A stretch of 64,000 bases of DNA from Norana najaformis (lineage: Eukaryota > Annelida > Clitellata > Crassiclitellata > Hormogastridae). The stretch spans positions 35,824,424 through 35,888,423 of the forward strand of contig OZ029914.1 in assembly GCA_964023275.1 (NCBI GenBank), written 5' to 3'. Position 1 is the first letter of the stretch; each line of letters opens with the position of its first letter. The notes beneath the pieces are model-generated. The model did not search any database and was not told the DNA's origin. It was given only the letters and a program-made list of their open reading frames with translations. The position numbers and the translations under genes were made by a program. Below, piece by piece: positions 10,901 to 54,459 of this stretch.

Positions 10901-13900
10901 ATGTAAGAAACACCAGATTCTAACTAAAATTTACTTTTTTCTTCAGTTGTAGAACTTATAAATCCAAACTGTGTTTTAAAATGTGTATTCTTTTATTATC
11001 AAGGTTATTTTTCAGTTGGATCTTACAACCCAAAGGAAGAATTAACATAACAGTGTAGACCTGATAGCATACCGACATCTTGGTCAATTAAGCATGCACA
11101 AAATAAACAGTTCTATACAAAACACAAAAACTGTCATCCCTAATAAGTAACTTTAACCTCTCCTCAATATTTTCAAACTACTGCAAATTATTCTCAGTTG
11201 CATAAAAATAGTAGTGCAACATAACAAACTGCAATGAAATGTAACCAAACTGAAATCTCTCCCCTTTCAAAATTTCACGGATAAAGCAGCTTGTATGTAC
11301 TGTTTTTGTTCCAAATCTCAGCCAAAGTTTAACACATACCAAGTTCTGGAAAAAAAACAGTAAAAGAGCAATAAAAAATTCTATAGCTAGATCAAAAATT
11401 CCAAAGTACTACTACATAATAAGAATCAATGAAAGAATGACCAAATGAAGGAAAGAAGCAGTTACAGTGGGATGCGAGTTTGTCAAACCTTGCATGGCAA
11501 GAGAAAAGCCTACGGTTCATTGCACTGACCCGATTCGTCAAACTGGGTCGGATCGATTCGGTGTACCATGACAATAAACCCAGTCGGAAATTATTTTATG
11601 CATAATATATCATCACAATCACCTGACGGTGCTCAGATATACCTATTGCATTACAGACCTATACATAATATTCTGTGTAGCTGCATTTGATCATACATTG
11701 CACACTAGTAGCGCCGCCGGCTATTGAATGACACTCGTAAGACGATTGCTGGCAGTATGTGTACAGAAACGTCAAGTATTTAAGTTCAATAATAAAATAT
11801 CGTTTAACAAATTGTAATGATGATGATGATGATGATTATCATAATAATAATAATAATAATAATAACAACAACAACAAAAAAACAACAACAATAATAATAA
11901 TAATAATAATAACAAAACACTGCTGTCTTTCCCCTATTGTGAAAGGAGAAAGAAAAAGAGGGAAGGATGGAGAAAGTAAATTAAAAAGAAGAGAGGGCAG
12001 GAAAAGGTAGGAAGAGGGAGGCAAAGAGGGAGGAAGGAAAGTGAAGAAGAAGGAGTAAAGAAAAGAGCAAGGAGGGGAGAAAGGGGTAGAGACGGAGATG
12101 GATTAAGGGAAAGAGGGAGGAAGAGGAGTCAAGGAAAAGGACGGAGAGAAAGGAAAGGGTAAATGTTCAGACTGAAGAAATTTCTATCAAACTGACAAAA
12201 TCTAGCAAAGTACACCGAAATCAGCCTATCCGAACCGATCCGGCCAGTCAGATCGGATCGGTGTACGGTCGCCTTAATGCAAATCTAAACAAGCATCCGT
12301 ATGCCACCAAGTGAAGAAACTGCTAAAGCATTCATGGTGAGTTGCAATTAATCAAAAGACTTGTCAAAGATAATTGCAATGGAGGCAATCCCCGGATCAG
12401 ATGCGCATATTGGTTTCTGTCAAGAAACATTGTGACATCCACTAAATTTCTGCTCCCTCAGATTTATATTGTCAGCCACGAACTCAACCATCTGTCCCAA
12501 TTAAGACACCCTTATTGCCCTTAACAGCCCTTCTTAAATGTTCCTTTCAGGAGTGGGGTATTATGAGCGAAATACTGTTCAGTACTGTGCAGTACTACGG
12601 TCAGTACTATGGTCTCGAAAGCTGTGCATTATGGTATCAAAAGTTGTGCGCTTGCTATGACACCATCAGCAGTGCTTCTGTTGTTGACACTTGGATTGTG
12701 CAGTGCCTCTATGGTTGACGAGGTATTTTGGATTGTGTTACTGTAGTAACTTAAAAACTTCTGAACTTTTTTCTGTTTTTCGTCTGAAACATCTGGCTTG
12801 TTGACAGACTGAGTTGAAATTGATTACTTTTCCTGAAGTAGTCCTTTCTGAATGTAGGCCTACAACTGCATTACATTACTGAAAGTACTGGACATGCCAG
12901 CACGCTCTGTCCATACATGTTGTGATACTGATACAAGACTGCATTTCTAGTGCATTGCTTACACCTATTTTGACCAACAGCATATTACATGAACTCAAAC
13001 ACACACACACACACGCACACACACATGCACAAACACAAACATCGAAATACGAGAAGAATGAGTCAGTTACCGTGAGCTGTGATTAGCATTGCCTGTAATG
13101 TTGGAACTCGATGACTTCCCAGATATGTAGTCCATCCAGCATTTCTTTGCACTGGTCCTGAGCGATACAGCAGAAAATGTATTTTATGTAAGTAACTATC
13201 AAAACTTTGGTAAAGTAAAAAATGCGGAAAAACTCTATATGCGAAGCCTTTTTCGAAGAAGCACCATGTCTAATGTCACTGCTCATGAAAAGGACTGTGA
13301 TCTGATGTAATGTAAACTAACCATACATTTATTCAACACCATCTTCATGACTCAGAAAAGAATTAACCTAATTCAAACTGGTATTCTAATTTAAAAATAC
13401 GAGGGAATTTTGGGCACTTACGAATGGAACAGATGCCACCTCTTTTCATAGGGTTAGGTGATCCAGTGTATGCTAGTCCCAGTACATAACCAGCATCATA
13501 AAATGATTGGTAGGTAAAGATATGACCAAGGCAAACATCACGCATTGTCGCATCTTGGCTGAAAGTCTAAAAGCACACATAACAGCACCTTCTTGATCAA
13601 GACTCATAATGGACACTTCTGCATGTACGCTGTTGCTATGACTCCATTACTTAACATAATGGAATTGTTGCAGGCACCTTTGAGGCTTTTCTTTATTAAT
13701 TGTGTGCACTATTAATACCTGTTTACTACTACTACTACTACCACTACCACTCCTACTACCACTACATACTACTACTACTACTAACAACAACAACAACAAC
13801 AATGCAATTGCTTTCCGCTAACACATTCTCTCTGCCCGAACTTGATGAGTAGTGGTCGTTCCAGAAGTTGTTACTCTTTAATAAGTTTTTAAGTCCCGAG

Positions 13901-23805: not shown

Positions 23806-25312
23806 ATAACTCACTCATTAACCCACACCAGTCTGGTTTTACTAAACGCCACTCAACCGAAACTCTGCTGACATCTCTCTACAACAAGCTTGTTTCTGCC
23901 ATTTCTCATCAACAGGTTTCTTGTCTCTGTCTCCTTGATATCTCTGCAGCCTTCGACACCTTAGATCACAATATCTTACTCCACCGAGTTTCAACCTGGT
24001 TTGGTTTTGCTGACACTGCTCTCCTATGGATACAGTCTTATCTCTCCTCCCGCTCTTTCTCTGTTAAAACTTCGGAAGCCTCTTCTAAGTCATGCCCTCT
24101 CACTTGCGGAGTTCCACAAGGCTCCGTTCTTGGACCTCTTCTGTTTATCCTCTACACTACCCCATTCAGTTCACTCATTAAAGCATCCTTCGCTGACCAT
24201 CACCTCTATGCTGATGACACCCAACTATTCATCTCTTTCTCTCCAAATTGTTTCAATGAGTCTACAGATCATCTTCTTTGTGTGGTTAAACAAATCTTCT
24301 CTTGGATGACATCTAATATCTTATGCCTGAACCCATCTAAAACTGAATTCATACTTATAGGCCTACGTGATCAGCTCAAGAAAATTCCTGACCCCTCTAT
24401 CTCCCTCAGCCTGGACTCTGCCTCCACCCACACCTTTAATACTAACTCCTCTGTCCGTAATTTAGGTGTTATTTTCGACCAGAACCTTACTTTTTCTGAT
24501 CATATCACCCATCTTTCCCGCTCTTGCTTTATGCATATCCGCGACCTTCGCAGAATCCGTCCTATGCTTGACTTCAAAACCGCATCTATCATTGCCACAT
24601 CCATAGTTCATGCAAAACTTGACTACTGCAATTCACTTTTCCTCAATATTGACACAACTCAGATAAACCGCCTACAAGCTATCCAGAATGCTCTCGCTCG
24701 TGATGTCACCAAAACCCCCAAACACCATCACATCACCCCCTGTTCTCAAATCACTGCACTGGCTTAAAATACCAGAACGAATAGAGTACAAAGTCTTATC
24801 CCTCACCTACAACACACTTAAATCCTCCCAACCCTCCTATCTTCGTCACTTATTTACTATCCAACCACTCCGTTCAACCCGCTCCTCATCTGTCCTAACA
24901 CTTCTTCGCCCTCCCGTCACCTCATCCTTAAAATTTGGAAATCGCTCCATAGCCATAGCTGCCCCACCCCTTTGGAATAAACTCCCGCCATAATTGCGAC
25001 AGTTGTCTGGTCAATCATACGAACTCACCAACACTTCACCTCTTTCAGTTTATGCGCAGGTCTTTCACTCAAGACTGAAAACACTTCTTTTCCAAAAATC
25101 TTATCCTGATTCTTCCTCTTCCCCTTCTCTCTTCTCGCTTCAATTTCAAACATCATCCACCGTAGCCGTCCGACTATCTGACTCCTGGGTCTTGACCTGG
25201 AACCGAACTCTTTTGCCTAGCGATTTTGTTTTGACTGAGCGCCTGTGAATATGCTGCTTCCCGCGACTTAGCTTTCGTTGGGCGCTGTAGAAATCTCCAG
25301 ATTACGATTACA
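23806..25312 (+). mobile_element. 5'-truncated CR1/L2-like LINE (T1 master-type copy)
   Basis: Non-LTR retrotransposon ORF2. One frame is open from the CA tract to 24767 with the RT signatures HQSGFTKRHSTETLL, LDISAAFDTLDH, GVPQGSVLGPLLF, YADDTQLF and LNPSKTEFILIG. The frame then shifts once near 24740 to SLHWLKIPERIEYKVLSL and ..AAPPLWNKLPP, with a stop just after. It ends in a tail with GACTGAGCGCCTGTGAA and GATTACGATTACA, no poly(A). Endonuclease domain and ORF1 are absent. The same tail recurs at 5.1, 17.4, 38, 39.5, 56.7 and 60 kb. This copy is the least decayed here, so it is probably among the youngest. Confidence 0.9.
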
Positions 25313-29800: not shown

Positions 29801-32800
29801 ATTTCAGAATTATAGCCATGGCCAGAAGTGATGTGACAACCTCTCACATGAAAGCATGAGTAGCAAGTAATGTGCTCAGCACTCAGCAGATCAATTACAA
29901 ACTGAATACACATACAACATAAACAATTTAGAACAAACAATATAATGCCTTGAAATTTCTGTCAACCTGAAGAGAACCCACTGTACTGCTCCTCTGTCTC
30001 TTCCCTCTCTGGTCTCCAGATGTTGTACTTCGCTTATTTTTGGAAAACCCTTCTGACTTAACACAACGTTCATGAGTAAACTGGTGCACAGCGCTTAACT
30101 TTCAAGTACACAGTCTGCTTCAGAGGTGAAGCTTTAGAAATCTTGAGTTTAGCAAAACAACTGTGAATAATTATTTAATACTTAACTTCATTTCAAAATA
30201 GTTTGGCAACTTACTTCGACCACCTCTTTGATCAGTTTAGTTCTCTCTCTTTTGTCCACCCTGTCCTGTACACCACCATAATACATGTTAACGAAACTCT
30301 GAAAGCTAAAAATTATTGGTAATACATTTTTAGAATGGGGTTTAAGTATGTATTAGGCATCGAAATAACTACAGAATTAAATAAATTCCTTAAATTTCTT
30401 CCACACAACTTCACCATAGAGCATCTGATATTCTCTTGTTTGACTGACAATTGATCCAATTATTTCCAGTTATTTTACTCAAAGGATGAGGAAAATTCAT
30501 CAACACACAAAATTTTTGTGTTTCAGAATACTCCAAGTGTTGAGGCATTTCTTAGGTGCAGAATACACTTATCTAAAGTCAATACAATGCTACAATTACA
30601 GAAGTTTGGCATAAGACCACGATTTAAGATAACGTGGCTATTATAAAAATAACCAGAACATCTAACTGAGCTGTTGTTGAAATAAGTAAGTTGTTACTAA
30701 AGTTACATACCAAATAGCATATTACACAGCTTGGGGGTATCCACACCATCAAAGACACGCCAATAATAGTGACAACAATGTTGTTTCTCATGAATTTCAC
30801 TAAAACAGATACAGAATGCAACACAAGTCTACAAAGTCTCAATGTTGTTTCTCATGAACTTCACTAAAACAGATACAGAATGCAACACAAGTCTACAAGT
30901 CTCAATGTTGTTTCTCATGAATTTCACTAAAACAGATACAGAATGCAACACAAGTCTTCAAAGTCTCAATGTTGTTTCTAATCAACTTCACTTTGCCAGT
31001 GAATAGCTTTAGCGAATCTAACGATAAGTAACCATCTCACAAAATGAGTCCTAAGATGTACTTTTCATATTTGCAGATTTTAATAAAATGTGACCATGCC
31101 TGAGGAAACCCTCATAAAATCAGAAAAATTCTAAAATTAATTAATGAACTTTTTCTTTTAATGATGTTTAATATCATATCAGCTAGCATAGAAAGTATAT
31201 CTGATCAGTTTCTCTTCAACTGAGGCTATATAAATGTCCAATTACAATTACAAATACACAAGGGTGAAACACAAATGCATTTCTCAGTCTGCCACCAAGC
31301 AAACAGCAAATCAACTGAGGTTCTCAGACACAAGCAACTTGTTTCTTACATTTCAAAACACAACATGTGCTACACCTAACAATGTTGGTCCCTCAGCAGT
31401 GGAAGACAAACTTCTTTAAGCAGTAGCTGTAAATGAAACTAAAAAATTCACAAATGAACAGTACATGTATTTCTAAAGTAAAGCAAAGAAGCAAATCTCA
31501 TTTTCTAGATTTTTCACAACTGTAACAAATTGATCCAACTTACCAATATCCTCTGGGGTAGAAACATCTAAAATCTCCCAAAGCCGATGGATTATACCAC
31601 GCACAGTGCGAGCACAAACACCCTGAAATAGTTGGAAAACTGATTAAAATTCCAGTGACTCAGGAAGCTAAACATATTCCACAAACTCACTGTGCTTTGA
31701 AATGGGATAACCATGCTACACAGAGAATTACAGTCTCTACTGCTTTGGTGAGCTAAGAGAAGTTTCAAAAATAAATGCCTGCTCATATTTAAAAATTAGC
31801 ATATTATTATATCTCTTTACCTTAGGTAGAAGTGATTAATGAGTAATGAAAATTACGGATTTATATCCTAAAGATTAGAGGTCATCAAAAAGTTGTTTCA
31901 AAACAATTACCTTTCTAGATAGCCTCAAAACAGAATCCGTGATTTCCAGTGATCTGTTTTCTACTTATTACCTAATTTTTCATAGAAGCCAATCATTTCA
32001 CTGCTTGTCACAGAAAAATAGGTTCTTCAAATAAGGTTATCACATCATTATTTCTTAAATATGGAAACTGTACATCCAGGACACCATGAATAAGTGCAAC
32101 TCAGGTTTACTTACATCTTTGTCGCACGCTCCAATGATGCACGGCATGCCCTCAGGCATGTTCTTAACTGACCTTCCATCAGTGGCAAAAGGCCTGCACA
32201 GACCTTGCTGATTCATACAACAGTACTTGCAGGCATCTTCCACTGTACAAAAGCAACAACAATGTGAGATCTGCCTGTCCAACACTCTTGCACAATTATG
32301 CTTTCTTGTGAATTGTCCTCCTGGAGATCAATCTCCTAGTGAAAATACTGTTTCACGAAAGATGGCCAAAGAAATATTTAGATCTGATAGATATCCATAT
32401 TTCAGCACCTTTAAGCGGTTCTTAAATGGTGCTGTTTGTATATAAACAGAACAATATATTGCATAATATAGACTATCTAATACAATATATGCATACATAC
32501 GTACATACATATATACATGACAATATATTGGAATCATGAATGCCAGTTGCTGATAATTCTAGAGAAACTTTTACCAATGTTTTATAATAGTACAGTAATT
32601 GAAATAAAAATAAAAGTTCATTTGTTGTAATAAGGTCAGATTTCATACTCATATTCCATATTCGTGAAAGGTTCTGTCTGGACCCTGAAACAATAGCCCT
32701 TGACGTTTCTTTGTCTCTGTTCAAACCAACACTGAATACCATATTTTATTTATTGAAGTCCTATGCTGCCAGCTTGGAAGCATCTTTGAAAAGTGTCAAA

Positions 32801-35800
32801 GTATAAGTTTACAATATGAAGTTATTAAAAGTTTTTTGAAACTTTCAGGTTTAAACTTTTTACATTAGTGCCTCCAGCTGTACTACTGTAACAGACTAGA
32901 ATAAGCAGGACACTCAGAAAAGATGAAAACAAAAGCTACAGAAATTGTTACACTAAAAAAGATAGTGAAAAAATACCTGCATCACACGTGCAACTCTCGT
33001 AGCCAAACACACCACACATGGATATGCACTCGCCCCTTGAACACTGGCCCCTTCACAAGAAAAACCACTTCCATAATAAACACTGTCAAGCCAAACATGT
33101 ATGCATGCAGGTAGCATGTATGTATTTACATATGCATGCATGTATGTATGTATGTATGTGTATATGTATGCATGTAGGCCTATATATGTATTTATCTGGA
33201 CATTTTAAGGGCATATTCAAATATTCTAAAAGCAGAAGCTATTTCTGCTCCATCCCTCCCTCCCCCTCTTCCTCTCTCTCTTTCTCTCTCTGCCAAATAG
33301 CTTGTATGCAGGCCTCACTCTTTTTTCGCAGTAACTAACTTAAATATGTTTTAGAGCCTGCAGCTCTGCTGGTGAATTTTCAAACTTTAGGTATAATCTA
33401 TGAGCAGAGCTGCACTGGTTGCCCATGTAAAAAATGCCTTGAGTTTAAGATCTTTATTTTATACCCAGGTAAGCTGTACTCTATCCCATTTTAGGAAATT
33501 TGCATTTTGGTCTCATCTGTACCTGGCTGCTGATCTCTTTGCTCTGTGGCTGTTCTTCTGCTTCATACTTCCACAAAGCAACATGTATAGCAACATGGTA
33601 TATTTCTCTTGGCTGCCAAGCAGCAGGCAACATAAGCTTCTTGTCCTTTCTCTGCCAACAGTTAAGGACCATACAACTCAACTGTGGTCTTTGTTGTCAG
33701 GTCTCTTGAACAGGCATTATGTAAATGTGCGATTACAATTACAATTACAAAATGTAAGTGTTTGCACTTACTCGTTGAAGCACTTTGTGCCATCTGGTTT
33801 AGCTTTTGCTTCTGGACAGCTGGCTTTACTTCCACTTGGCAAAGTTAAAGAATAATGTAAAGTATGTACATGTACACCGTATATTATTAGTATATTATTA
33901 GTATATTATTATACAACATAATATTAGGCCTATATTACCAAACTATGTGATGATGCTCAAAATTTTATGAAAATTTTGTTACCAATACCAAATAAAAATG
34001 ACTTCAGAATCATTGGTACAAGTAAAAACCAATAAAATTTCATAAAGGATATGCAGAAATTAGAGAATTCTTTACACAGAATCTTCCAATTTGCAGAGCA
34101 AAAAAAATTCAACAAAATCTGATACTGAGGTTGTATGCGATTTAATTATTTACAGTACTTTGATACTGAGTGTGCAGTACTTGGTTAAAGGATACTCGCA
34201 GAAACTGTCCATTCTACAGAAATCTGGTGACGTTTTAAAACATGTGACGTTTACATCTCTTGTGATAATCTGACAATTTCGACAGCAGGGAGAGTTGAGG
34301 TCACTGCCAACACCACATAAACAACTACATGTACGTTGTACACTAACTGCAGCTGGGTATTACCATCATGCATTTTAAGAACCTTACAAAGCTGCTGGAT
34401 ACCGGCTATCTAACAGTTCTAAAAGGTGCAACATAAGATAAGATGAGAATGTTTCTTGAGCCTTTTGAGCCAGTAGAGTTTGAATTCTCAGTGGAAGATT
34501 GTTCCAGAAGGGAGGATCCAGTGCATTTCACTAATCCTTGGTAATGTCTGAAATGGGACTGCTTTCCTGCTCAATCATATTGTTGATGATGTTTCATTTG
34601 GTATTCAATACCTTCACTGAATGAAGTTCAACCCAATTTATGCATGCATTGGGATGAGTGAAAATTTGGTCCACTTGATGAGGAAGAGCAGTGCATGCTT
34701 CTAAACAACAATGACACAGACCACAATGAAAACCACAACATAAACAAGTTTATATAAAACCCTTGAAGATCTGGGCTGCAAATTTCAGTTCTAGCATCTC
34801 AACTTCGTTTATTGATCCCAATACGATTGACAAAGACTACAAAGTACTACAAAGTAAAATAGGTCGTTGGAGAACACGTGACCAACCCAGAAAGGACCAA
34901 AGTCCCACTTAATGAGACCTGCCTATTAATGAACAATAAAGACAGCAATAAAGAACTCCAGCAAATGAGTAGTAGATCTGAACGAAAGGAAACATCTTAA
35001 TTAAATGAAACATCTTAACTAAAAGAAACATCTTAACTAAAAGAAACATCTTAAAAAAGGAAATGGCTTAACTAAAGGAAACATAAAAGGGCGATATTTA
35101 TAACTTGCTAAATTAGCATTACCATAAAAACAGAGACAAAATTAAATGGATGAACAACTGGAATCACTTACCTACACAGAGCCGAAGCTCTTAGCATGCA
35201 GTTGCTGTCACAGCAAGGGTCTAAACTGTCAATGACACTGAGCCCAGGGTCACACTGTTCACCAGATTCCACAATGTAGTTGCCACAAAATGCGCCTCGC
35301 TTCACTGCACAACCAGCCAACCAAGGCACAGTAAGGTAAACACTAAATTGTTACACAACCCTGTCACACCCCTTCTATTACTCTATCAATTTTTATCACA
35401 GCAGTTTCTACTTCAATTCACTGAATTTTTTTAGTTTTTCGTGTTATTATTGTTATTATTATTTAGTTACTGTGAACATTCTCTGTACTATTACCATTAC
35501 CTTTATCAAGCGATTTACCTTTACCTTTTCACCTGTAATACATTAGCAATAATAATAATGATGATAATATCATTATCATTACAGTGTGGATGCATTTATG
35601 CGCTCCCATTTTATCCATAATTCCATATAATGCGAAATGGCGTCATGTCCCCCAAAGCTATTAACTTAACACAATGTGTTTGCTAAAGCGCAGTACAAAG
35701 AATTACAGTGTCGCACTAAATATCTAAATATAGGAAATAAGTTTAATAAAATCACATGAACATGCACTGTAAAGCCGATTTCCTTTTCTTTTTCATTGCC

Positions 35801-38800
35801 GTATTACACTTAATCACATTTCATATGTTTACATATTTTTCATCTGCCTATTTCATAATAACGGTCGAGTGTCAACATTCACACACTGCTCAGGAAAAAT
35901 TGGCTGCTGTAAATCAGATCTACAGTGGTTAAATGGAAGCCAAATTTCTAGAGACCTTGCTACGGCAGTCAGCTCTAGGAGGTTAATTGGTAAATAATGA
36001 AAAAACAGCGCGAATTTGTGAAAAATGCAGTTTCTCAAGTTGGAGTGGAGACAAAAGCATGCACCATTTTGCAAATAAAAATTGCCCAAGAGATAGCCAA
36101 CTGCCGCTGCCATCTGGTGAATGCTAGTACAATGACTCAGCTACTATTAAGCTTACGTAATGTTTAAAATTTTAAAACTTATTCATTACTACAAATATCT
36201 GTTATGGCAGGAAGATGAAAAGGGAAGGAGGTGCTGTCTCTTCAATGGTGAGAATGAATTCACAAAACTGTTTTCCAGAGCCTAGTAACTGTAAGTTTTT
36301 ACATCAGTTGAAGGAACTAAGCAATAGTTTGTGAAGTGCATGCACAAGGTCCTTACACAAAGATCATCCGTGTTACAATGATCACACAATCACACTGATC
36401 ATCTGTGTTACAATGATCACACTGATCATCTGTGTTACAATGATCACAATGACCATCTGTCTTACAAGGATAAAATTCAGGGATCGAGGAAAGTACATTA
36501 AGGGCAATAAGCTAACGTAAGAATTTCTTACCTTGAAAGCAGGCAGATTTTTCCTGCAGAGTTGCTCCAATTCCTCTGATAGAACAGGGTGAAAACACCT
36601 GCAATCATCAAACATAATACCAATATCTGAAGTACAAGTAACACTTCACTTGTTGTATTTACTGTGACCTAATCTGCATTTTGGAGTTATAGACAAACTA
36701 ATATTTTGAGCACTTCTGTACAGCATTTGGTCGCAAGTAATCAAAGCCTGCCCTGCCATTTTGAAATGGTTACCCTATAAAAAATACACCATCCAATCTT
36801 ATGTTAAACTCTGCCACTGCCTTGTTTGGGGGTAGTGCCAGTCCCAAGCCTGGATAAAGGAGGAGGGAGACGTCAACGGCCTTTGATGCTATAAGATGTC
36901 GTTAAACATTAGAACTACTACTACTACTATATTAAAACGTGCTCTACCCTATTATTATTGTTACCCCATTTTCAAACGCCATAACATCCTACCTACTACA
37001 CGTCCTGATTCCGTCTTCCATTCTTTCCCTTGCATTAGTTTAATAAACAATGAAGCCACCATACAAAGATATCTCCTGTTCAGACCTTGTTTTAAATGCC
37101 CCTTTTCCCTGATGACCTTCTCTCATCCTGCAACATCACTCTTTCTACGATTCCTTAAAAACATACTCTAATTATTACCAAATCCTCCTCCAGTTGAGAA
37201 TATTTGTTGATCTTTGCAACTGTTAAAGATGGATCAGCTACACTGCAGTTATCATGTTCCCATTTTAGCTAAACAACTGCTTACTGCATATACTTCGATT
37301 AGATTAGGTTCATGTATATTAGAACCACCACAAGACCATGCCTCAAATGCCTCACGGGAAGTTCCTTGGTAGGGCATATAACGAAAAAGCGATTACTCTA
37401 TTTTACTTCAAAGGTATCAAACCAGGTATCAGAGTTCAAGACCTACCAACCCAGTTGTTTTTGTCTGTGCCAGACACTGAAATTGAATACATGAGGTACT
37501 TTCCACCCGAGGAGGCAGATGGTGCACATTCTGCAGTGACATCATCATGAGTCGCACCCCAATTGTGACCTGTTCAACACCATTACCACTTCAGTAAACA
37601 AACAAGAATTTACTATTTGTACATACTTAGACAGAGCATGTTTTAAAATAATTAAATATCAAAACAACTAATTATCTACGAAAAGAAGAGATAAATTCAC
37701 CAGAATCAGTTGTACTTAAGCCTCCAGTCATGGGCCAAAAATACCGTTAAAAGCCAAGATCCGTATTTCAATCTTTAGCAAGCATCAGATACATACCCAT
37801 CTCTGCAAAGCAACAAGAAAATTTGTATTAAAAACTTCACATTTCACATAAAATGAACAGTGAAAAATAAATAAATAAATGGCAAATTGAAAACAATAGC
37901 CTGAATCAAGTCCGTAATCTAGCAACAGTGATCTACGCTGACAGGTTCCATTACAGTTGATTAGTATTCTAATTGTAACTGTAAACTCAAGATTTCGACA
38001 GCGCCCAACAAAAGCTAAGTTGTGGGAACCAGCTTATTAACAGGCGCTCAGTCAAAACAAAATCGATAGGCAAGAAGGGTTTGGTTCCAGTTGGCATCAC
38101 AATGGCCAAGATGGCTGTTGTAAACAAATCTTGTTCATTTTGACAGAGTAGTTCATCATATGCTGAATTTGTTTAGTAATGCTCATGCAGTTCAGAAGTC
38201 TACCAGACTTAAGAAATAATTCAGAAATGCAGATTCAGTCACGATATGTGTCTGACAAGAATTATCAAGTAAATTTTTAATATGATGATCTGATCTGCAA
38301 AATGAACTAAAACAAGTCAAGATGGCTGCTACCAACAGAAGACCTTCCCAGTTGTGGATCTGTGGATCTAGAAGTAAAGTAACGAGATAAATAAATAAAA
38401 AGAAAAATAAGATACAATTACGAGTGGTTTCCAAATCAACACAAATTTTTAGCTCTTTTCATTAGTGAATGCTAAATAAATTTAATAAGAAACAGATTTC
38501 CAGAATATACAAAATTAAATTACAATGGTAACTTGCATATTTGTTAAATTTGGCAGGTTATTGGCAGAGGGGTTTTAAACTGGGGATTATTTTCCTGGTG
38601 GTTATTCCCCATATGGGGTTATTAACCAGGGTGTTTGGAAAATCTTAGAAAACCTTTTTTTAACTCCCAATCTCTGTACTGACCGTTCAGCAATCTTGCT
38701 AACCATTATACGTCATATAAAACAACAAATCACAGCGCACAGATGAAAGGTACACTTCTCTATAAAGTAACTGCCACATGGAAAGAATCCAAGTAAAATC

Positions 38801-41800: not shown

Positions 41801-44800
41801 TCTTTAGGTTCCTGTTCAGTCCTCCTCTCTTTGTGCTTAATAATCTCATGCATTTCCTATACAATTTGTATGATGACTCCTACATATTACATATTGTTAC
41901 TCTGTCATCGAGTTACCATAACTATTATATCACAATCATCATTACTTACAGCAAGCAAATCCAGAGTCTCAAACTGTTGGATTTTTGTGTAATTATAACC
42001 AACTGTTGGTTGTGGAAAGATGCGGATCTGCAAGATAGAAAACAATGATTTCTCCTTCTTACAATCAGGCAAGAAAACTTTAATTATTAGTATTCATCGT
42101 GGCATTTACAAAGGCCTCTCAAAAAACATATTGCATGCAAAAAAATCAGTAAAATTTAACTTTATAAAATTTATTGGAGTTAAGTGAAACTATATGCAGT
42201 TGTAATTTAGCTTACATCAATCATTTAAAGTAATAGCTTCTTATCATCTTTGCAAACATCACTCATTATTCTGGTATGATACATATAAATATTATTAGCT
42301 TTTCATAATCCACCTAGACAGTAGACACAAATAGTCAACTCTTTTATGTATTAAATAATGCATGGAACTTTGAATAATAATAATAATAAGACAATTTATA
42401 TAGCGCCGTAGTACAGCCGAGGCCAAAGAAAAGGGCGCTGTACAAGGGTTCGAAAATCAACTGCAGTCATAAGATATCCTAAAAAGATGTGTCTTGAGTC
42501 GTGACTTGAATGTGTCCAGCGATGGGGCATTCGTCACATTCTCAGGAAGACTGCACATAGAACTCAAGTGTGCATTGATGGACATGGACAGCGTAGTATA
42601 CTTTTTGCATCAGAGTCTAGACAAGTTTAGGCAAGCAGAAATATATTGGTTTGAGTGAGATATATATACAAATGTTCTGCCTGTATACAGAGTAGGCCGT
42701 TAAAATAATGACAGTGGATATATAGAGTTCAATCCACTATTTAGTGGATATATAGTTACAGTTTATACTTTGGAGAAACTGTACAGTTTTATGCGATAAA
42801 GGACCTTCTCAAAAGGAAGAACTCAATATAAATAAAAAAGTCAACTTTGTGATTTTACACACAAAATAGGCCACATTATTTCATACAACAGCTTACAACT
42901 AGACCTTAAGACAGAACATAGTCTAGGAGTTAGGGAAGACTGAGAGGAATTCTGATACTTCTCTGTTGCATTAAAGCCTAAACAGACAATTTTTTACTGC
43001 TGCCAGTTTTGCATATTTTGCATAAGGACCTTCTTTATCTGGACACTGTTTTATTCAAATAATTTACAGAGCTGTTCTCAATATAATCCGTATAACTGTT
43101 ATTATGCTTTCTACACTGAACTGTATATTTTATATTCATTTTCATGCTGTGGGTTTTGTCTGGCATTAAGACCGCTTAGTTACTTACCTAAATACAGTTT
43201 GGCGCAGCCAAAAGCTGTCCTAAAGTGAATAGTCCAGTTAAGTAAACAATGGCATGAACTGAGCACCCGTGCGATTGAATGAGTCCTTTCCAACTCCCCC
43301 GGGGTGATGATGATGAGTTTTCTGCCCGAAGGCAGGTCCAATGGCTTTATGGCACCCAGGGATGAGATGAGTGAGGTGGTTTCCCGTTGCCTTCTTCACA
43401 GACAATTGCAACTTGTCCAAGGTCGCTACGCAGTGACTTCAGGCAAATTCGAACCCGCGACCTTCCGGTTACGAGGCAACGACCATACCACTACACCACT
43501 GTGTCCCGGGGTAGAGTACAATAAAGGGCCTACATGCCACGATGATACCAAAGACTCTTCCACAACCCAGGGAAATGTGGTGACACATGGCCAATGGGCC
43601 AGGATCCAGCTGTGTGGAGTTTGGCCCTATACTCTGCAAGTCCATCTCATGACCCCATTTGTTCTATGTTGTTGATGAGTTACAGATCAAAAGTTGCGTC
43701 ATCACCTTCTTTACTTCAAATCCAAAACCTTTATCACATCCTTCAAACTTATGACTTCGGTAAATCTGATCGATTCTATCGATATCGGACAGCTGAAACA
43801 GAACGTAAAACATCCTCATAAAAATACACAAACTGCAACAAATTAGAAATCATTTACGGTTTTTACAAGAAAACCTTACAAACTACGACAAGCAATCTGA
43901 TTACTCAGACTGTTTTAAGCCCGACAGATTCATTGACGGTCATAGGATCCATTCTAATTTTCTAGTTCAATTCAAAAATTCAACATTTCTGTGGTTATGC
44001 ACTGTAATAGATAGATGCTCCAAATTATGAGATGAGATACAAGAATTCTACTGAAAAAGCAGCCTAACCACAAAATCCTGTTCCAGTTGTCCAGTGCATA
44101 AGCAACACTTGAAAATTAACTGATTGGAAATTACGTCAAGGATCGTGGAAAGTTAAGGATTTCTCAAAAAAGAGCTGTCCAATCGTATTAGACATTTTTA
44201 GCAATTGTAAAACTTTTTTAATTATTGGTAGCTCGGCTTCTGGACAACCACATTGGGCAGGGACACTTAAACCGATTACGGCATATTTTCTGTAGAGTTA
44301 ACAGATTTATTTGTACATTTACGAGATTCAATTGCCTGATTGTAGTGGGTTAAAGAGCATTATATTTAATCATGTGTTTTCTGTTCTACGTCATTCATAT
44401 TTACACAATCTAAGGATGTCCTTTCCTTTTAACCGGGACAATCCCCTATGAGGTCACAAGTTGGACTTGCAGGGTATAAGGCCAAACACCCTGACCCACT
44501 GGCCATGGGTCGCCACATTTCCCTCGGACAAAGAGGTCTTCAACATCATCCCGGCACGTTGGTCCTGTTCTGCAGTCTAGCCAGGGGAGTTGGAACCTGG
44601 CAGCTCCAGTAAAAATAGAGTTCTTCACAATACAAATGAAAAGCCTGCAAAGAAATAACCCAAAAACTGAAAAACCAAGCGAAAACAGCTTCAAGCAACT
44701 TGTTCAGCAGAAATTAGGGCTTAACATTTACACAAACATACATACGAGAATTACTTACCACATGAATGACTGTATTCAAAACATGTTTTTCTCCAACGTA

Positions 44801-45357
44801 TGCATAGAAACGAGGATCTATGACCACATAAAGTGGACAGGTATTTTTATCAGTTGCAGTACAGGTTGATCTTCTTGATCTCTCCTCTGCCAAAATACAT
44901 CTCTGAATTAGGCAAGTTAGAGTTTTCAAAAACATACAAGAAACAAAAAAAAAACAGTAGAATAGCTGAGACTGGTACTAGAAAACTTATAAAAAAACTA
45001 AGAAGCTGAAAGGACTTCAACACAAAAGTGAGAAATCATATAAACTAAATCCTAGTCATAAACTGACCACACTAACTATTCCTGAATAGTGAATATGGGC
45101 ACTCCAGTGGTTTAACTAAGCAATGCTCCATTCAGTAACCACAGTTTAAAGTTATGCTCTACACAAACTGTGTCTGGTACTTTTTTGGTCAGGCTTCGTT
45201 AGGTTGTCAAGCCAAAAGTTCAGATGATGCGTCAAAGTCTCATTTGTGTTTACTTCGGCTTCTTTGTAACCACATAAGCTGAAAATATAAAATTGCATAA
45301 ACACGATAAAAATTGTTGGATCAGGTTATTTTTATTATTATTATTATTATTATTAGG

Positions 45358-45389
<32 letters not shown>

Positions 45390-48300
45390 AAGAAGAAGAA
45401 GACAATTTATAAATCACAAGTTAATATAACTGAATACACCCCAAATGCTCTGACAATGGTTTGATCTAGTCAGATGACATAAACAAGTAAGTCTTCAATC
45501 TTTTCCTAAAATTTCCGATGGAAAGTTCGGAAGTATGGAGTTTGATGGGCAGTGCATTCCAGACCGTTAGGCCAGATGCACTGAATGTTCTTTTACGTGG
45601 CCTAGTGGCTTTTCCGGACCATAGTAGGTTGCAGCTGTTTCTTGAATGCAATTGAGACTGGCAGGAAGTGAAGAAGCTGGCAAGCAGCCTCTGGCAAAGT
45701 ATAGTGGCACCATTCCATGTAGCTCATAAAATTCTAGGAATAAAACCCCAATTGCAGTTTCCTTAACTGATTCTGAAAGAGATATAAACAACATTAACAA
45801 TAATATGCTTATAGTATTTAAAGCACATGGCTGGAATGTATTATACACTGTACCCCTTTTATCTAAAAAAAACATTTAATTTGTAAGAAAGAAACAGCAA
45901 CTCTATTATTGTGTCAACGAGAGGTTATGAGGGGCAACATAAAATAGTCTGTTAGGATACAAAATCAAACATAAAAATAAGCAGAGAAATTTTACCTGGT
46001 ATTGTCCCATCTGAGATCAGAGTTACGATAAATAATCATTGAATCACGGGACACATTTGGCAATAGATGCCAGGCAGGCTGAAGAAGACAAGAAAAATAA
46101 TTGCAAACCTATAAACAGGATAATTTCTGTATATCTATAACTAATTTCAATCGTGTACGCATGTGCAACAGCCAAGGCAACTTCCAGCTAAACATCTAAG
46201 TCTTTCAGTGAAGGCAAGGTTCTTGGCAACTACTACACCTCATTACACTCATTACATTACTGTCTTTGGATGCCATGTCAAAAACCACCTTTCAATGAGG
46301 TCCTGCTATAACAAGTTTAGTTTCTATAGGTAAATTAATGTTGGGATAAACGTCTCTGAACATGTTATATCACAATAATGAGCCTCTCGTGTAGATACAT
46401 GTCTAATCTTATCTGTGGTAATCTGAAAACTTCTAAGGAGCTACTGTAGAAGAGTGTAAACAATTGCCACCTTTACCTTACTATTGTACTGCCATTATAA
46501 TATGCAAATCATCAATCGAGAGTTGTTTCTATGTAAAACCTCACTCCATAATTACAATCCTTTGGGTAGGATCAGTTGTGATCCAAGAAGTCAGATGGCC
46601 GGAAAGACAGGTTATGGCATATAAGCTTCCAGAAGATAAGATTTTAGAAAAGGCCCTAATGAAATAAGAGAATTAGCAGACTGGACAGAAACAGGTAGTG
46701 AATTCACAGAAAACCAATGCAAAGATTGCATTATAGAGGCGACGAGTTGGTATCTGCACATTTTCGTGGTCAGAGACGTTGATCCCAACATCGAATTCAG
46801 TAACTAGAAACTAAGACATTAGCTAGTGAATTCAAAACATCTTAAGGCATCAGAGTCCTCCTCATTCAGAGAAAATATTTCATGTATCAAATTGAACACG
46901 TAGGCAAAGGAATTTAACATGCTTTGAGAAAGACATGGTGGAATTAAATATGATGAATGAAATAAGCCTAAGGTGATGAGCCAGTGTGAGTGAATGGGGA
47001 AAATGCCAGTTGAATTTTTACAGCTGTTGCCTTGAAAAAACTACATGTTGTCATGTTCTTGTTGACAAGACCATTAAGTATGGAGTTTCATTTTTCATAC
47101 AAGCCATCAAATGATATGTGAGAATTCGGAATCCAGTGATGACTGGCCATCAGCCTGAAGTAAATTTTAAAAACCAAATTAAAATATGCTTAAATTCAAA
47201 AATCAGCTACAAATCTCATAAAAGAGGAAGTTTAACATTTTTTAAGCTGAACAGTGAACATGTAGCTTAATACTGACCCAAAACACACTGTAATTCTACT
47301 CAGAATACTGCAAATATTGTTAAGATTTGTGAATTTCTTGGCACTGCCATTTGCTTACTTCAACAACATAGAAATCGGAAGACGTCTTGAAGGCTGCCGA
47401 CAGAACGTTGTCATCATTCAGGTAGGCACTAACAAATGAATTGGGCTCGCCTGTTAAAGCGGAAAACTGGTGAGTTATTCCAGGTAACTAGCATCTTTAT
47501 GAATAATGTAAAAATAAGTTACCAGACACCTCTATATCCATTCATTATGTGAGACAAGTGAGTTAGTCGAAAGGTGGCCAAGATGGATCTTCAAAGATTT
47601 TCAGCTCAACATTTTATCACCATACATTCAAGTTTCTAGTGTCTTTTATTGTGTAATTATATCTTAATCAGCTGGATGTCTTGCTTCTTCTAATAAATGG
47701 ACTTCAAATCACTGAGCAAGGACTTCATTTAAAAAAAACTTTTCCAATCATCTGTAGCCAGTATGCAATAGTTAAAAGTCAAAATGGCAGACCTTACCTA
47801 CACTATTTGTATTTGGTCTTTGTATTCAGCTAAATGGTTTGTCTAGTTATACGCATTTGGCCAAACAGTTAAAACTACTGTGTGCAACAGCTCTAAAATA
47901 TGCATGCTTGCACATATGTATCATTTTATTTGACTCTGCTCATGACATATTTTCAATCTGCTTTAAGTCATATCTGCTTAGATAGGTAAGATGGCATGTA
48001 TGCAGCACTTTCAAGAGGTTCATAAAAGGTGTGCATTACAGTGCCTTGAAACACACCAGCATACATACATATATAAACACATACACACATATATATCTAC
48101 ATATTTATGCATGATTGCATACCTACATGTTGCATATCTACATGTTTAAGCAAGCATGCATAAACAATTAAACATGGTGGAATTCCACAACCAACTGAAC
48201 CAACAGAAGCGTCTTTCTGTAGAAAAGAACCAACCTTCGACAGTTCCCCGATAAAGATTGATGTTAGGCCGAACTTCTCTTTCCTTTCCATCTGCATTCA

Positions 48301-50467
48301 TCACTAAGATCTTGAAATCAGGAGCAATGATCGAATGATCCTTTCTCAGCACAAGTGAAAACTGTCTAAAGATTTTCAAATGCCACCGACACAGTAAGCG
48401 CATCAGTTAGAGAGAATCTTTCAGACATTCTATAGGGTTTGACATGTTACATTAATGTTCACATAAAAACGTCAACAAAATCACAGTATAGCAATGGGAA
48501 AAACATGACGAACAACAACATAATTTTTGGGTGCCTAATTTGAGTGCACTAGAACCACAGAAGGTATCATATGCTGGGAACGAAAGATAACGAATAAATG
48601 GAAGTTGGGAAAGAAATCGGCAGAAGGTGGGTCAGAGATGGTCAACAAACACCTAACGAGATGGTTCTGACTTGGAAACTTCTGTCCTCTATTGGCCTTC
48701 CACTCTCAAAACCGTGCCAACACCCTTGCTAGGGTGCATATGTGCCAGGGTGCATATGTACCAGGGTGCATATGTGCCAGGGTGCATATGTGCCAGGGTG
48801 TATATGTGCTAGGGTGCATATGTGCCAAGGTCCAATGTGCCAGGGTGCATATGTGCTAGGGCGCATATGTTCTAGGGTGCATATGTGCTAGACACACTGC
48901 AATAAGCAAAGGCATTGTGATATTAATGCCATTGACAACATGGAACAAGAAGTCTCTTTCGTTGGAAAAACAACACAGGTTTCAAAAGAGAGGAAAAAAC
49001 AATTTAAACAATGCCAGAGAAGCAGTGCATAAGATGTATAATTAGAAGCATGAAATGGTGGCTTACCTGCCATACGAGTCAAATTTGATCAGCTGTTGAA
49101 GAGGGTGATGGCTTCCAGAGTCACGTTTAATTATATGACGTTGAATTTTTGAAATGGACAATGTCTCCCAGTATTTCAAAGAGCTTTCTAAATCTCCTAA
49201 ATATTTGGCAACAAACAAACAACAAAAATTTTCTTATTTCTAAGTTTTTCTTTTATAGTAGTATTCTATTTCAACATCTATTGATTTAATTCAGTAAATT
49301 TGTATAATGCTTAAAAGAGCTTCAAGATATCTATCTATTCAGCTTAACATCAGCATTAGAAAGAAGTGCTCATAGCATCCCCAGTGGTGGAAATAACTAC
49401 AGACGTGAAGGGGCAGTTTGCAACCTTCTCATGGCACCCCTCTTGGTTATATCCCTCAGACCAGACCTGTGCATCGTGGACTGCCAGAATGTGGCACCCT
49501 CTGGAAATGCTCTTGACCCCCACTCCATGCAAGCAATCCTGGAGCCGCCACTGAGCATCCGTTTGTGACATAACTTGAACACAGAACGACTACAAAAGAA
49601 GAAGTTTTCAGTCTATGTATTGAGCTCTGCTACGGTCAGTTGGGAATTCAGTTGGGATGCACAGATAATCACAGTTTGAGACTGGTAATTGATGGTTTTA
49701 GTGTCCCAAAGTAATAACTTTATTATCCATATCATTTGTGCATTCCAAATTCACGGCATCGGTGAAGAACACAGGGTCTTCAGTGGGACTGAATGGAAGA
49801 GTCTGAAGTGTTTTCTGGTATAGGTTTCTGATTGACCAGCGGCTACACTCATAAGCTTATTCTTCAGCACATTCTGCTGAGTGTGCATATGATCTCCGAT
49901 GGATGTACAGTACATGCAATCATCAGTTTAATAATTTGGGATGCTTAAATGATAACTTACTGCTACAGGATTGTGCCAGATCAAACTTGGGTTCATGGGA
50001 TAACCCAATTATTACTTTGAAGCAGCCTAGCAGGGTAATGCAAACAAACTGGAATGCATGACGACTAATTCTAACATCTGCGAATACAAACAGAAACTTT
50101 TAAATCTGACAAACTTTAAGTATACTTTTCATATACTTTTCCTAAACTTTTCCGCGTCTCAGATTCAGATTTACTGACCTTGCGCGCGTTATAGGTGCTT
50201 TTAATAAATAAATAAACACAGGTGCCGTAATAGATATAAAAATTCACAAAAAGCGGCTTTTGAATTTGTATACAAACAAAAAACTTTCATACCACAGTAA
50301 TAAAATTTGACGCCTCGAACTATTTCTAGGGCAAGCTTACTCAGAAAACTCAGTAACTCGGATCTTGTTCTGGAACGTGACCATCAAAGTGCGCACTACT
50401 CACCATCAACGAGATGCACAGCAGAAAGGATAAAATAAACAACGGCGAAAATTAAGTAACTATACAT
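26806..50467 (-). CDS. ADAM17: ADAM17-like metalloprotease gene A, complete, 25 exons
   Basis: ADAM17/TACE-type sheddase. Minus-strand coding exons: 50467-50404, 49196-49067, 48365-48235, 47450-47359, 46078-45996, 45278-45181, 44886-44759, 43792-43706, 42027-41950, 40395-40251, 38934-38845, 37802-37797, 37569-37451, 36598-36532, 35304-35172, 34303-34181, 33834-33772, 33050-32977, 32236-32115, 31622-31544, 30799-30711, 30298-30215, 28620-28381, 27915-27865, 26844-26806. Total 2415 nt: 804 residues plus stop, with every junction in phase. Layout: signal peptide 1-21, prodomain to about 205 with CGY cysteine near 170 and RSRR furin site, catalytic domain with [12 protein letters not shown] (His375, Glu376, His379, His385) and YLMY Met-turn, disintegrin CGNYIV, membrane-proximal CKYCC, CANDIS-like helix, transmembrane about 645-667, tail of about 137. 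One GC-AG intron (after exon 10). The start is the only ATG leading straight into a signal peptide. Confidence 0.93.
27358..27470. repeat. Microsatellite (ATT)n
   Basis: Long ATT/TTA run with an AGT stretch; the minus-strand Ile/Asn ORF over it is not a gene. Confidence 0.9.
27865..27915 (-). CDS. ADAM17: Gene A exon 24: cytoplasmic tail
   Basis: 51 nt, [17 protein letters not shown], a short predicted amphipathic/coiled-coil helix. Acceptor GTTCCAG, donor GTAAAC. Confidence 0.75.
28381..28620 (-). CDS. ADAM17: Gene A exon 23: Ala/Gly/Asp/Val-rich tail
   Basis: 240 nt, 80 residues, phase 0 to 0. Starts [14 protein letters not shown] and ends [14 protein letters not shown]. The middle is low-complexity and acidic ([20 protein letters not shown]). 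Acceptor TTCTTTCTAG, donor GTAAGT. No counterpart sequence in human ADAM17 or gene B. Confidence 0.85.
28820..28866. repeat. 17-bp tandem repeat, 3 copies
   Basis: AGAAAGTCTAGCTACRT three times, in the intron before exon 23. Confidence 0.85.
29487..29550. repeat. 24-bp tandem repeat, about 2.5 copies
   Basis: ATGTTATGTTACACTTAAAC repeated, intronic. Confidence 0.8.
30215..30298 (-). CDS. ADAM17: Gene A exon 22: juxtamembrane cytoplasmic segment
   Basis: 84 nt, 28 residues: [11 protein letters not shown] then [17 protein letters not shown]. Basic and acidic residues directly after the membrane. Acceptor TAGCTTTCAG, donor GTAAGT. Confidence 0.85.
30711..30799 (-). CDS. ADAM17: Gene A exon 21: transmembrane segment
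   Basis: 89 nt as in B. KFMRNNIV followed by a hydrophobic run ending CVICYL. Its first 22 coding bases and its acceptor (TGTTTTAG) lie inside a 63-64 bp tandem repeat. I chose the acceptor nearest the exon because it gives the same length as gene B. Donor GTATGT. Confidence 0.9.
30776..30992. repeat. 63-64 bp tandem repeat containing a splice acceptor
   Basis: Three near-identical units plus a diverged partial one. Each carries the TM exon's acceptor and first exon bases; possible exon starts fall at 30799, 30863, 30926 and 30990. Confidence 0.9.
31544..31622 (-). CDS. ADAM17: Gene A exon 20: CANDIS-like juxtamembrane helix
   Basis: 79 nt as in [20 protein letters not shown], cf. human GKCEKRVQDVIERFWDFID, which binds substrate in the stalk of ADAM17. 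Donor GTAAGT. Confidence 0.9.
32115..32236 (-). CDS. ADAM17: Gene A exon 19: membrane-proximal domain
   Basis: 122 nt. [17 protein letters not shown] and [11 protein letters not shown]; human SCKVCCRDLSGRCVPY and KPCTVGFCDMN. Acceptor ACAGTGGAAG, donor GTAAGT. Confidence 0.93.
32977..33050 (-). CDS. ADAM17: Gene A exon 18: disintegrin/membrane-proximal junction
   Basis: 74 nt as in [19 protein letters not shown] then SCTCDA. Donor GTATTT. Confidence 0.88.
33110..33190. repeat. Microsatellite (ATGT)n
   Basis: Tetranucleotide run just before exon 18; gives spurious Met/Tyr/Val ORFs. Confidence 0.88.
33478..33752 (+). mobile_element. LINE-tail-like repeat (family R5)
   Basis: TTTGGTCTCATCTGTACCTGG..CTGATCTCTT..GCTCTGT..CATACTTCC matches 40563-40665. 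Ends in (ATTAC)n 20 bases from gene A exon 17, opposite in strand to the gene. Confidence 0.65.
33772..33834 (-). CDS. ADAM17: Gene A exon 17: disintegrin domain
   Basis: 63 nt as in [21 protein letters not shown]. Acceptor CTTTGCCAAG, donor GTAAGT. Confidence 0.85.
34181..34303 (-). CDS. ADAM17: Gene A exon 16: disintegrin domain
   Basis: 123 nt. [19 protein letters not shown], human CSDRNSPCCKNCQ. The donor is placed at AA|GTACTG for phase 2, homologous to gene B. Confidence 0.85.
34988..35085. repeat. 18-bp tandem repeat, about 5 copies
   Basis: AAACATCTTAACTAAAAG, decaying at the right end. Lies close downstream of exon 15. Confidence 0.85.
35172..35304 (-). CDS. ADAM17: Gene A exon 15: disintegrin core
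   Basis: 133 nt. [16 protein letters not shown] and [15 protein letters not shown]; human VCGNSRVDEGEECDPG..TCCNSDCTLKEGVQC. Intact donor AG|GTAAGT, unlike gene B. Confidence 0.93.
36361..36468. repeat. 27-bp minisatellite, about 4 copies
   Basis: GATCATCTGTGTTACAATGATCACACT repeated; the MISVIIVTQ repeat ORF on the minus strand comes from it. Confidence 0.88.
36532..36598 (-). CDS. ADAM17: Gene A exon 14: end of catalytic domain
   Basis: 67 nt. [19 protein letters not shown] then CFQ; human [22 protein letters not shown]. Acceptor GATTGCAG, donor GTAAGA. Confidence 0.88.
36805..36915 (+). mobile_element. LINE/SINE tail remnant
   Basis: GTGCCAGTCCCAAGCCTGG and GATAAAGGAGGAGG, followed by (ACT)n; a related GTGCCAGTCCCAAACCTGG piece is at 23.49 kb. 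Confidence 0.5.
37451..37569 (-). CDS. ADAM17: Gene A exon 13: zinc site second half and Met-turn
   Basis: 119 nt. (G)[18 protein letters not shown] and [14 protein letters not shown]; human [31 protein letters not shown]. In-frame stop just upstream of the acceptor excludes an extended exon. Donor GTTGGT. Confidence 0.93.
37797..37802 (-). CDS. ADAM17: Gene A exon 12: 6-nt microexon with catalytic Glu
   Basis: Minus strand reads TCTTGTTGCTTTGCAG|AGATGG|GTATGT: strong acceptor, consensus donor. It joins CAT G to GT CAC as CAT GAG ATG GGT CAC = H-E-M-G-H (His375, Glu376, His379). The intron to exon 13 is 227 nt. The paralog has the same device with AACTTG. Confidence 0.87.
37965..38095 (-). 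mobile_element. LINE tail copy (family T1), minus
   Basis: Reverse complement of the 25.2 kb tail: GTAACTGTAAACTC.. then AACAGGCGCTCAGTCAAAAC and AAAATCGATAGGC. Confidence 0.8.
38845..38934 (-). CDS. ADAM17: Gene A exon 11: catalytic domain up to first zinc His
   Basis: 90 nt. [18 protein letters not shown] then [11 protein letters not shown]. Ends CAT G before donor GTAACT. Confidence 0.88.
39455..39745 (-). mobile_element. LINE C-terminus and tail (family T1), minus
   Basis: Same tail plus the last ORF2 stretch (reverse of CTGTGCAGAGACTGCAAGGG etc.). Longest T1 fragment within gene A; nearly identical in layout to 59.95-60.25 kb. Confidence 0.8.
40251..40395 (-). CDS. ADAM17: Gene A exon 10: catalytic domain, GC donor
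   Basis: 145 nt, identical in length to [32 protein letters not shown]. The donor is G|GCAAGT, a GC-AG intron. The length match with B (GTAAGT) fixes the position. Confidence 0.92.
40563..40665 (+). mobile_element. R5 repeat fragment
   Basis: Similar to 33478-33600 (TTTGGTCATCATTTGTATCTGG, CTGATCTCTTAGCTCTGT, AATACTTCCA). Confidence 0.55.
40785..40892. repeat. About 40-bp tandem repeat, 3 copies
   Basis: GTTCTGTTATCAGGCTATAT followed by TTTTATTCCAAATGCAAT repeated; generates a repetitive plus-strand ORF that is not a gene. Confidence 0.88.
41373..41864 (-). mobile_element. RTE-like LINE C-terminal fragment
   Basis: Minus-strand frames give [55 protein letters not shown] and [13 protein letters not shown], the post-RT region typical of RTE/BovB-type LINEs. 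The pieces lie in different frames, so at least two frameshifts have occurred; an old insertion in the exon 9-10 intron of gene A. Confidence 0.85.
41950..42027 (-). CDS. ADAM17: Gene A exon 9: catalytic domain
   Basis: 78 nt as in [20 protein letters not shown] then ETLDLLA; human IRILKSPQEV. Acceptor ATCTTGCAG, donor GTAAGT. Confidence 0.88.
42376..42600 (-). mobile_element. LINE 3'-end fragment, minus
   Basis: Minus strand reads [17 protein letters not shown]-like, then GCGCTGTAC..GGCGCTATATAAATTG and (TTA)n: the usual CR1/L2-type C-terminus with tail. Confidence 0.65.
43302..43508 (-). mobile_element. tRNA-derived SINE, minus
   Basis: The head (43508-43442) has an A-box-like GTGGTGTAGTGGTATGGTCG and a B box GGTCGCGGGTTCGAAT, with CTCGTAA in the anticodon-loop position (Thr-like CGT). 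The body runs to an (ATC)n end at 43302. Not a tRNA gene: the acceptor-stem ends do not pair convincingly and it continues into a body. Confidence 0.8.
43512..43665 (+). repeat. Inverted repeat, left arm
   Basis: GGGCCTACATGCCACGATGAT .. GGGAAATGTGGTGACACATGG .. TTTGGCCCTATACTCTGCAAG. Opposite-strand partner at 44448-44590. Abuts the SINE. Confidence 0.75.
43706..43792 (-). CDS. ADAM17: Gene A exon 8: catalytic domain
   Basis: 87 nt as in [19 protein letters not shown], then GFGFEVKK. Acceptor CTGTTTCAG, donor GTGATG. Confidence 0.9.
44448..44590 (-). repeat. Inverted repeat, right arm
   Basis: Reverse complement of 43512-43665: on the minus strand the frame reads [22 protein letters not shown] against [22 protein letters not shown] in the left arm. 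Confidence 0.75.
44759..44886 (-). CDS. ADAM17: Gene A exon 7: furin site and start of catalytic domain
   Basis: 128 nt as in [17 protein letters not shown] then [17 protein letters not shown]. Cleavage after RSRR would release the prodomain. Donor GTAAGT. Confidence 0.92.
45181..45278 (-). CDS. ADAM17: Gene A exon 6: cysteine-switch exon of prodomain
   Basis: 98 nt. (S)[15 protein letters not shown], human KVCGYLKVDNEELL. Acceptor ATATTTTCAG; donor A|GTACCA chosen by phase. Confidence 0.82.
45330..45400. repeat. Microsatellite (ATT)n(ATC)n
   Basis: Triplet runs at the 3' end of the minus-strand LINE fragment next to it. Confidence 0.88.
45401..45880 (-). mobile_element. LINE ORF2 C-terminal fragment, minus
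   Basis: [20 protein letters not shown] then [15 protein letters not shown] and stop: the usual CR1/L2-type C-terminus, ending in the triplet microsatellite. Upstream part is out of frame. Confidence 0.8.
45996..46078 (-). CDS. ADAM17: Gene A exon 5: prodomain
   Basis: 83 nt as in [21 protein letters not shown] then DLRWDNT. Acceptor GTCTTCTTCAG, donor GTAAAA. Confidence 0.9.
47359..47450 (-). CDS. ADAM17: Gene A exon 4: prodomain
   Basis: 92 nt as in [21 protein letters not shown]; human GEPDSRVLAHIRDDDVIIR. Donor GTAAGC. Confidence 0.92.
48235..48365 (-). CDS. ADAM17: Gene A exon 3: prodomain
   Basis: 131 nt as in [21 protein letters not shown] and [11 protein letters not shown]. Acceptor AATCTTTAG, donor GTTGGT (weak). 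Confidence 0.9.
48730..48892. repeat. 16-bp minisatellite, about 10 copies
   Basis: CAGGGTGCATATGTGC with few substitutions, in the exon 2-3 intron of gene A. Confidence 0.92.
49067..49196 (-). CDS. ADAM17: Gene A exon 2: N-terminal prodomain
   Basis: 130 nt as in B. (G)[20 protein letters not shown], ends FDSYGR. Acceptor AAATATTTAG, donor GTAAGC. Confidence 0.9.
49586..49718 (+). repeat. Dispersed repeat, copy 1
   Basis: ACTACAAAAGAAGAAGTTTTC..GGTCAGTTGGGAATT..TTTTAGTGTCCCAAAGTA, repeated at 57129-57248. Confidence 0.85.
50404..50467 (-). CDS. ADAM17: Gene A exon 1: signal peptide
   Basis: 64 nt, [19 protein letters not shown] then VDG across the junction. Short N-region, hydrophobic core of about 15, small residues before the prodomain. 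Donor G|GTGAGT, phase 1, joining exon 2. No TATA box recognised upstream. Confidence 0.85.
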
Positions 50468-54430: not shown

Positions 54431-54459
54431 ATCTATGTATATATATATATATTTATATA

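Follow-up and report, generated by a model that had tools for sequence, protein, structure and literature searches.

The window, a 64,000-nt stretch of the genome of Norana najaformis (C2:35824424-35888423 of an assembly of 608 Mb in 17 contigs), contains two genes related to the ADAM17/TACE metalloproteases. Gene A lies on the minus strand and is represented by the following features, given in window coordinates in the order of transcription.

42998..48364, minus strand: upstream exons of gene A, encoding part of the propeptide and the start of the catalytic domain (boundaries approximate; the model is without some exons)
40395-40251, minus strand: exon 10 of gene A; of the two donors examined, only a GC donor (ATG/gcaagt) preserves the frame
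38934-38845, minus strand: exon 11 of gene A, ending ACA GCA CAT G/gtaact, i.e., TAH plus the G of a split Glu codon
37802-37797, minus strand: exon 12 of gene A, the microexon AGATGG, which together with the flanking bases encodes E-M-G
37569-37451, minus strand: exon 13 of gene A, starting ag/GT CAC AAT TGG, i.e., two bases of a Gly codon followed by HNWGATHD; donor GTTGGT
30215..36598, minus strand: exons 14-22 of gene A, encoding disintegrin and ADAM17-type membrane-proximal domains and then a hydrophobic, transmembrane-like stretch

The second gene, paralog B, carries the same arrangement.

13426..13545, minus strand: exon 10 (core) of paralog B
13071..13161, minus strand: exon 11 of paralog B, ending LITAH plus G (5' boundary approximate)
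11345-11340, minus strand: microexon AACTTG of paralog B (E-L-G), in the same place and phase as in gene A
10070..10191, minus strand: exon 13 of paralog B, with HNWGSPHD (3' boundary approximate)

With its GC donor, exon 10 of gene A would be followed by a GC-AG intron. Elsewhere in the window, a reverse-transcriptase-like frame of a LINE-type element, recognized by eye, was found on the plus strand (23682-24767), as well as a tandem repeat with reading frames open on both strands (53932-54460).

The joined protein of gene A, which is incomplete (540 residues), matched the Pfam family Reprolysin_2 of M12B catalytic domains with an E-value of 2.4e-21, and a stretch of 74 residues around the active site matched ADAM17 structures in the PDB (best E-value 5.8e-14). 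The disintegrin domain PF00200 (42.3 bits, cut-off 35.1) and the ADAM17 membrane-proximal domain PF16698, ADAM17_MPD (47.4 bits, cut-off 26.2), were also detected. By these matches, gene A encodes an ADAM17/TACE-like protease. Capitella, Paralvinella and Owenia were among the top named protein matches.

The pattern HExxHxxGxxH is the zinc motif of metzincins, and its Glu serves as the general base. For HExGH to be read across the ends of exons 11 and 13 of gene A, an insert of the form A[AG]NNNG, of exactly six bases, is required. The intron between them contains ttgctttgcag/AGATGG/gtatgt, i.e., a good acceptor, six nucleotides and a GTATGT donor, so that an exon shorter than 16 nt with both splice sites and a fitting phase is present. 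With the microexon, the region reads as a stretch of 17 residues, and without it as one of 15 (14 and 12 residues, respectively, in a shorter reading of the same junction). Only its inclusion yields the complete motif HExxHxxGxxHD, and the frame remains open to exon 22 in both joins. The proposal of the initial annotation that this unit supplies the general-base glutamate of a metzincin, restoring a 12-residue active-site reading, thus agrees with the present analysis.

Whether AGATGG might be a chance match was assessed with splice-site matrices, for which the other exons of gene A supplied 16 acceptors and 15 donors. The intron contains six units of the type AG-6nt-GT, only one of which, AGATGG, has the form A[AG]NNNG, and this unit has the top splice score. 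Dinucleotide shuffling of the intron, repeated 300 times, never gave an A[AG]NNNG unit scoring as high, and the 19-base string around the microexon occurs once in the 608-Mb genome. These results bear on the reading that gene A is a pseudogene or dead paralog, in which exon 11 is joined straight to exon 13 and AGATGG is fortuitous. The evidence is of sequence alone, and some members of the family look damaged, as in the exon-11 donor of one dispersed copy described below; however, the reading frame of gene A stays open through 12 exons and the microexon with all phases fitting, the microexon surpasses every shuffle, and a six-nucleotide unit recurs across the family. This reading is accordingly considered very improbable, and the reality of the microexon, as proposed initially, is upheld by its splice sites, its frame, the shuffle test and its recurrence in related genes.

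A genome search with the gene A protein gave 105 exon-level matches. They fall into an array of ADAM17-like genes spanning C2:35.24-35.87 Mb, intron-bearing copies dispersed elsewhere (two on C1, and C15), and copies that have no introns. The array, of about 14 genes including gene A, is a tandem expansion; its listed matches are on the minus strand, with two exon fragments (35680197 and 35680685) as the exceptions, and the sequences of exons 11 and 13 diverge strongly between its copies. Broken nuclear copies of mitochondrial COX1 were also recorded in this genome (C15:410858-414226 and 568964-572781; L002-L004).

Exon 13 was located at 17 loci, 14 in the array and three dispersed. A microexon was clear at 13 of them, a weak candidate was present at two (L038 and L039), and at the remaining two array copies, C2:35326862 and C2:35504200, no microexon was found by locus searches or genome-wide patterns. 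The unit is thus conserved between homologous genes. The 13 clear loci are 11 array copies including paralog B, gene A itself and the dispersed copy L037; exon 11 was itself read in nine of them, and three (35520856, 35669681 and 35749709) are known from pattern matches alone. The microexons that were read are as follows.

AGATGG: gene A
AACTTG: paralog B, C1, C3, L041 and L043 (C1, C3 and, below, C2 and C5 denote gene copies here)
AAATTG: C2 and C5
AGATTG: L042
AATTTG: L037 and L039
AAATGG: L038

In all 11 copies in which both flanking exons were read, exon 11 ends with AH plus G and exon 13 starts with GHNWG or GHGWG; therefore, the Glu is absent from both flanks every time. All of the microexons read encode E-[M/L/I/F]-G, the initial copy-by-copy inspection having used A[AG]NNNG and hence presupposed E. 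A pattern with the E codon fixed, run over the whole 608-Mb genome, matched at 11 sites; these all belong to the C2 array and share one strand, and the reversed control gave no match. When the six exon letters were left free, so that E was not required, 34 matches were obtained, and the only mismatch-free ones were those same 11, all of the form A[AG]NNTG; the other 23, with two or three mismatches, lie elsewhere and are compatible with chance (12 and 15 matches in the control).

In 9 of the 11 introns scored, the microexon was the top-scoring six-nucleotide unit. Equally good units appeared in 6 of 300 shuffles for L041, in 16 of 300 for L039 (rank 6 of 11 among its six-nucleotide units) and in 75 of 300 for L038 (rank 9 of 17), the last two candidates being weak when taken alone. 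Near nucleotide 3490 of L039 (C15:14754801-14760000), GGAAGT stands in place of a GT donor after exon 11, and the predicted motif is HEFGHGWG; this copy may be decaying or dead.

In blastn comparisons of the 11 copies (E<=1e-3, plus strand), the introns of gene A, L037, L038 and L039 matched those of none of the others, while the intron of paralog B aligned with those of the other array copies. The array copies are related to each other, and agreement among them is not independent. A six-nucleotide exon of constant length, phase and meaning inside introns that cannot be aligned suggests selection as coding sequence.

Several other ADAM17-like or ADAM genes of this genome have an undivided motif. 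L006 (C6:25.84 Mb) and L007 (C1:23.52 Mb) are ADAM17-like and apparently intronless, with a contiguous HELGH. They were considered as support for splicing of the microexon and rejected in this role, since the tree places them in a long-branch clade of their own, separate from the genes with a microexon. Four ADAM17-like genes are apparently intronless, L006 and L007 (the two that were read), C4:43.46 Mb and C1:7.52 Mb, with open frames of 705, 769, 573 and 737 residues, respectively. In L040, which we take to be ADAM10-like from its motif, HEVGHNIGS lies apparently within one exon, so the splitting of the active site is apparently not general to ADAM genes.

Three homolog searches listed 201 proteins in all, from a database clustered at 90% identity. 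The Glu is present in 199 of them, including P0199 and P0200, which end shortly after the motif. The whole HExxHxxGxxH pattern plus flanks is missing from four: P0199, P0200, P0069 of the annelid Paralvinella palmiformis and P0196 of the freshwater mussel Sinanodonta woodiana. The last two, both genome-derived gene models, are the only ones with TAHGHN, the junction expected from skipping. P0190 from the mussel Potamilus, the sister of P0196 in the tree, has TAHELGHN, with the two residues present. P0180, which is the closest entry to gene A in the tree and groups with it at 98/85 support, reads TAHELGHNWG in a frame of 688 aa on a contig of 2,798 bases. P0066-P0068, 83-90% identical to L037 and on contigs of 2.8-3.7 kb, read TAHEFGHNWG, which matches the E-F-G encoded by the microexon of L037; P0071 has the same reading, and together with it they are 77-90% identical to L037 and 712-726 residues long, on contigs of 2.4-3.7 kb. 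Such contigs are too short for genes with introns of this kind and are therefore probably cDNA, and those of P0180 and P0066-P0068 include the two residues. The expectation that relatives would show the same split HExxH codons was borne out in paralogs of the same genome, and in other species it is met indirectly. A search of prokaryote genome contigs for a stray eukaryotic ADAM17 exon gave 169 pattern matches and no relative.

Another feature of the catalytic domain was observed in L037 (C1:2756001-2762000), where two exon-10-like units (FCLAHLFT...GG[IV]CS) are arranged in tandem (reverse-strand nucleotides 594-854 and 1565-1720). The gene models from Paralvinella and Kerria lacca, and in part the one from Owenia, have both units one after the other (P0069, P0072 and P0074). 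The pair resembles a set of mutually exclusive exons within the catalytic domain of ADAM17 and may be shared between insects and annelids.

The simplest reading of the junctions in P0069 and P0196 is that the microexon was missed in annotation; a true loss of six bases in Paralvinella and Sinanodonta is a possible alternative. If the microexon is present and unannotated in both genomes, it would predate the divergence of annelids and molluscs, a conclusion held less surely. The microexon may instead have been gained within the lineage studied here, with the gaps in the two models having another cause; this alternative concerns only its age and is compatible with the main reading. The other listed relatives show the Glu in their protein sequences; on the other hand, both models are without exactly the two residues encoded by the microexon, at the same place and in two phyla, and a recent gain is therefore regarded as unlikely.

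According to the reading preferred here, three exons together encode the active-site helix, and the microexon is a constitutive, ordinary part of the coding sequence and not a regulator of activity (probability about 0.87, which leaves aside the age of the microexon and its loss in annotation). The first zinc-binding His would come from exon 11, along with a single base for the Glu; the microexon would complete the Glu codon, add a hydrophobic residue and start the Gly codon with one base; and exon 13 would hold the other two zinc ligands. The split itself, with its phase, length and conserved E-[MLIF]-G, is seen in the genomic sequence of paralogs, several of them with introns that cannot be aligned. 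Constitutive inclusion is suggested by the enzyme being unable to work without the microexon. Less surely, annotation pipelines would drop so short an exon and thereby produce falsely "dead" ADAM17 models.

The initial annotation had proposed that inclusion or skipping of the microexon switches one transcript between an active protease and an inactive pseudoprotease. In this scheme, some cells would skip the microexon and produce an inactive ADAM17 shorter by two residues, acting as a decoy or dominant negative. Six nucleotides preserve the frame, so that the skip product can be made, as was foreseen; in addition, neuronal microexon programs are reported in non-vertebrate bilaterians (PMC8797185). 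The expectation of a clean loss of the Glu did not hold, because skipping removes the Glu together with its neighbor, turns HExxH into HGH and places the first two zinc-binding His two positions apart instead of four. The metal site would thereby be damaged, and zinc binding and the fold would probably fail. TGC-type upstream motifs mark regulated microexons, and 11 of 12 microexon acceptors have a TGC in the 30 nt before them, compared with 7 of the 16 ordinary ones in gene A; the array copies are not independent, and this count, a weak lead toward regulated skipping, was set aside as too weak to serve as evidence. The splice sites of gene A are strong, as reported for constitutive microexons of the human brain (PMC8831610). 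No skip-type transcript was found among the 201 listed proteins, in which clustering at 90% identity would hide a two-residue variant, and the two skip junctions present belong to gene models. Nothing pointing to regulated skipping was found, and such a switch is improbable. The same low probability applies to an ancient form of it, in which some cells would make a dead, zinc-poor ADAM17 as a natural inhibitor. If true, the inhibitor would be located with the partners and substrates of the enzyme, and the switch would have been retained since the common ancestor of annelids and molluscs and multiplied in a tandem family.

Under the constitutive reading, a catalytic residue that an animal protease cannot do without would be carried on an unusually small exon. 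Because failure to include this exon should directly inactivate the enzyme, the gene would offer a test case for reliable recognition of a six-nucleotide exon by the spliceosome. An annotation that misses the exon can make such a working enzyme look like a pseudoprotease, and two public models are probably already wrong in this respect; reported inactive ADAM17-like proteins of annelids and molluscs warrant a check for a missed microexon.

No report describing this ADAM17 microexon was found among the openly licensed papers listed, as judged by titles and the beginnings of abstracts. What appears to be new is a conserved active-site microexon of only six nucleotides in an animal metzincin. Animal neuronal microexons of the eMIC/SRRM4 program measure 3-27 nt, keep the reading frame and are often conserved, and they resemble the present one in these properties; however, they are alternative and usually modify surfaces, whereas the microexon of gene A should be indispensable for catalysis. 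Vertebrate ADAM17/TACE belongs to the same family as gene A and shares the motif HExxHxxGxxHD, but in the mouse the catalytic zinc-binding domain is said to be encoded by exon 11 (PMC6404580), while in gene A the motif is distributed over three exons. The closest precedent appears to be the 9-nt mini-exon of plant GH32 genes (invertase/fructan exohydrolase), which encodes DPN with one active-site residue; a natural allele without it was judged putatively non-functional (PMC4477480), and it was omitted from the rice and maize annotations (PMC8831610). Both cases combine a tiny in-frame exon, an active-site residue of a hydrolase, family-wide occurrence and omission from annotation. They differ in that the plant exon has nine nucleotides and supplies an Asp to a glycosidase, whereas the exon described here has six and would supply a Glu to an animal metalloprotease of an unrelated family.
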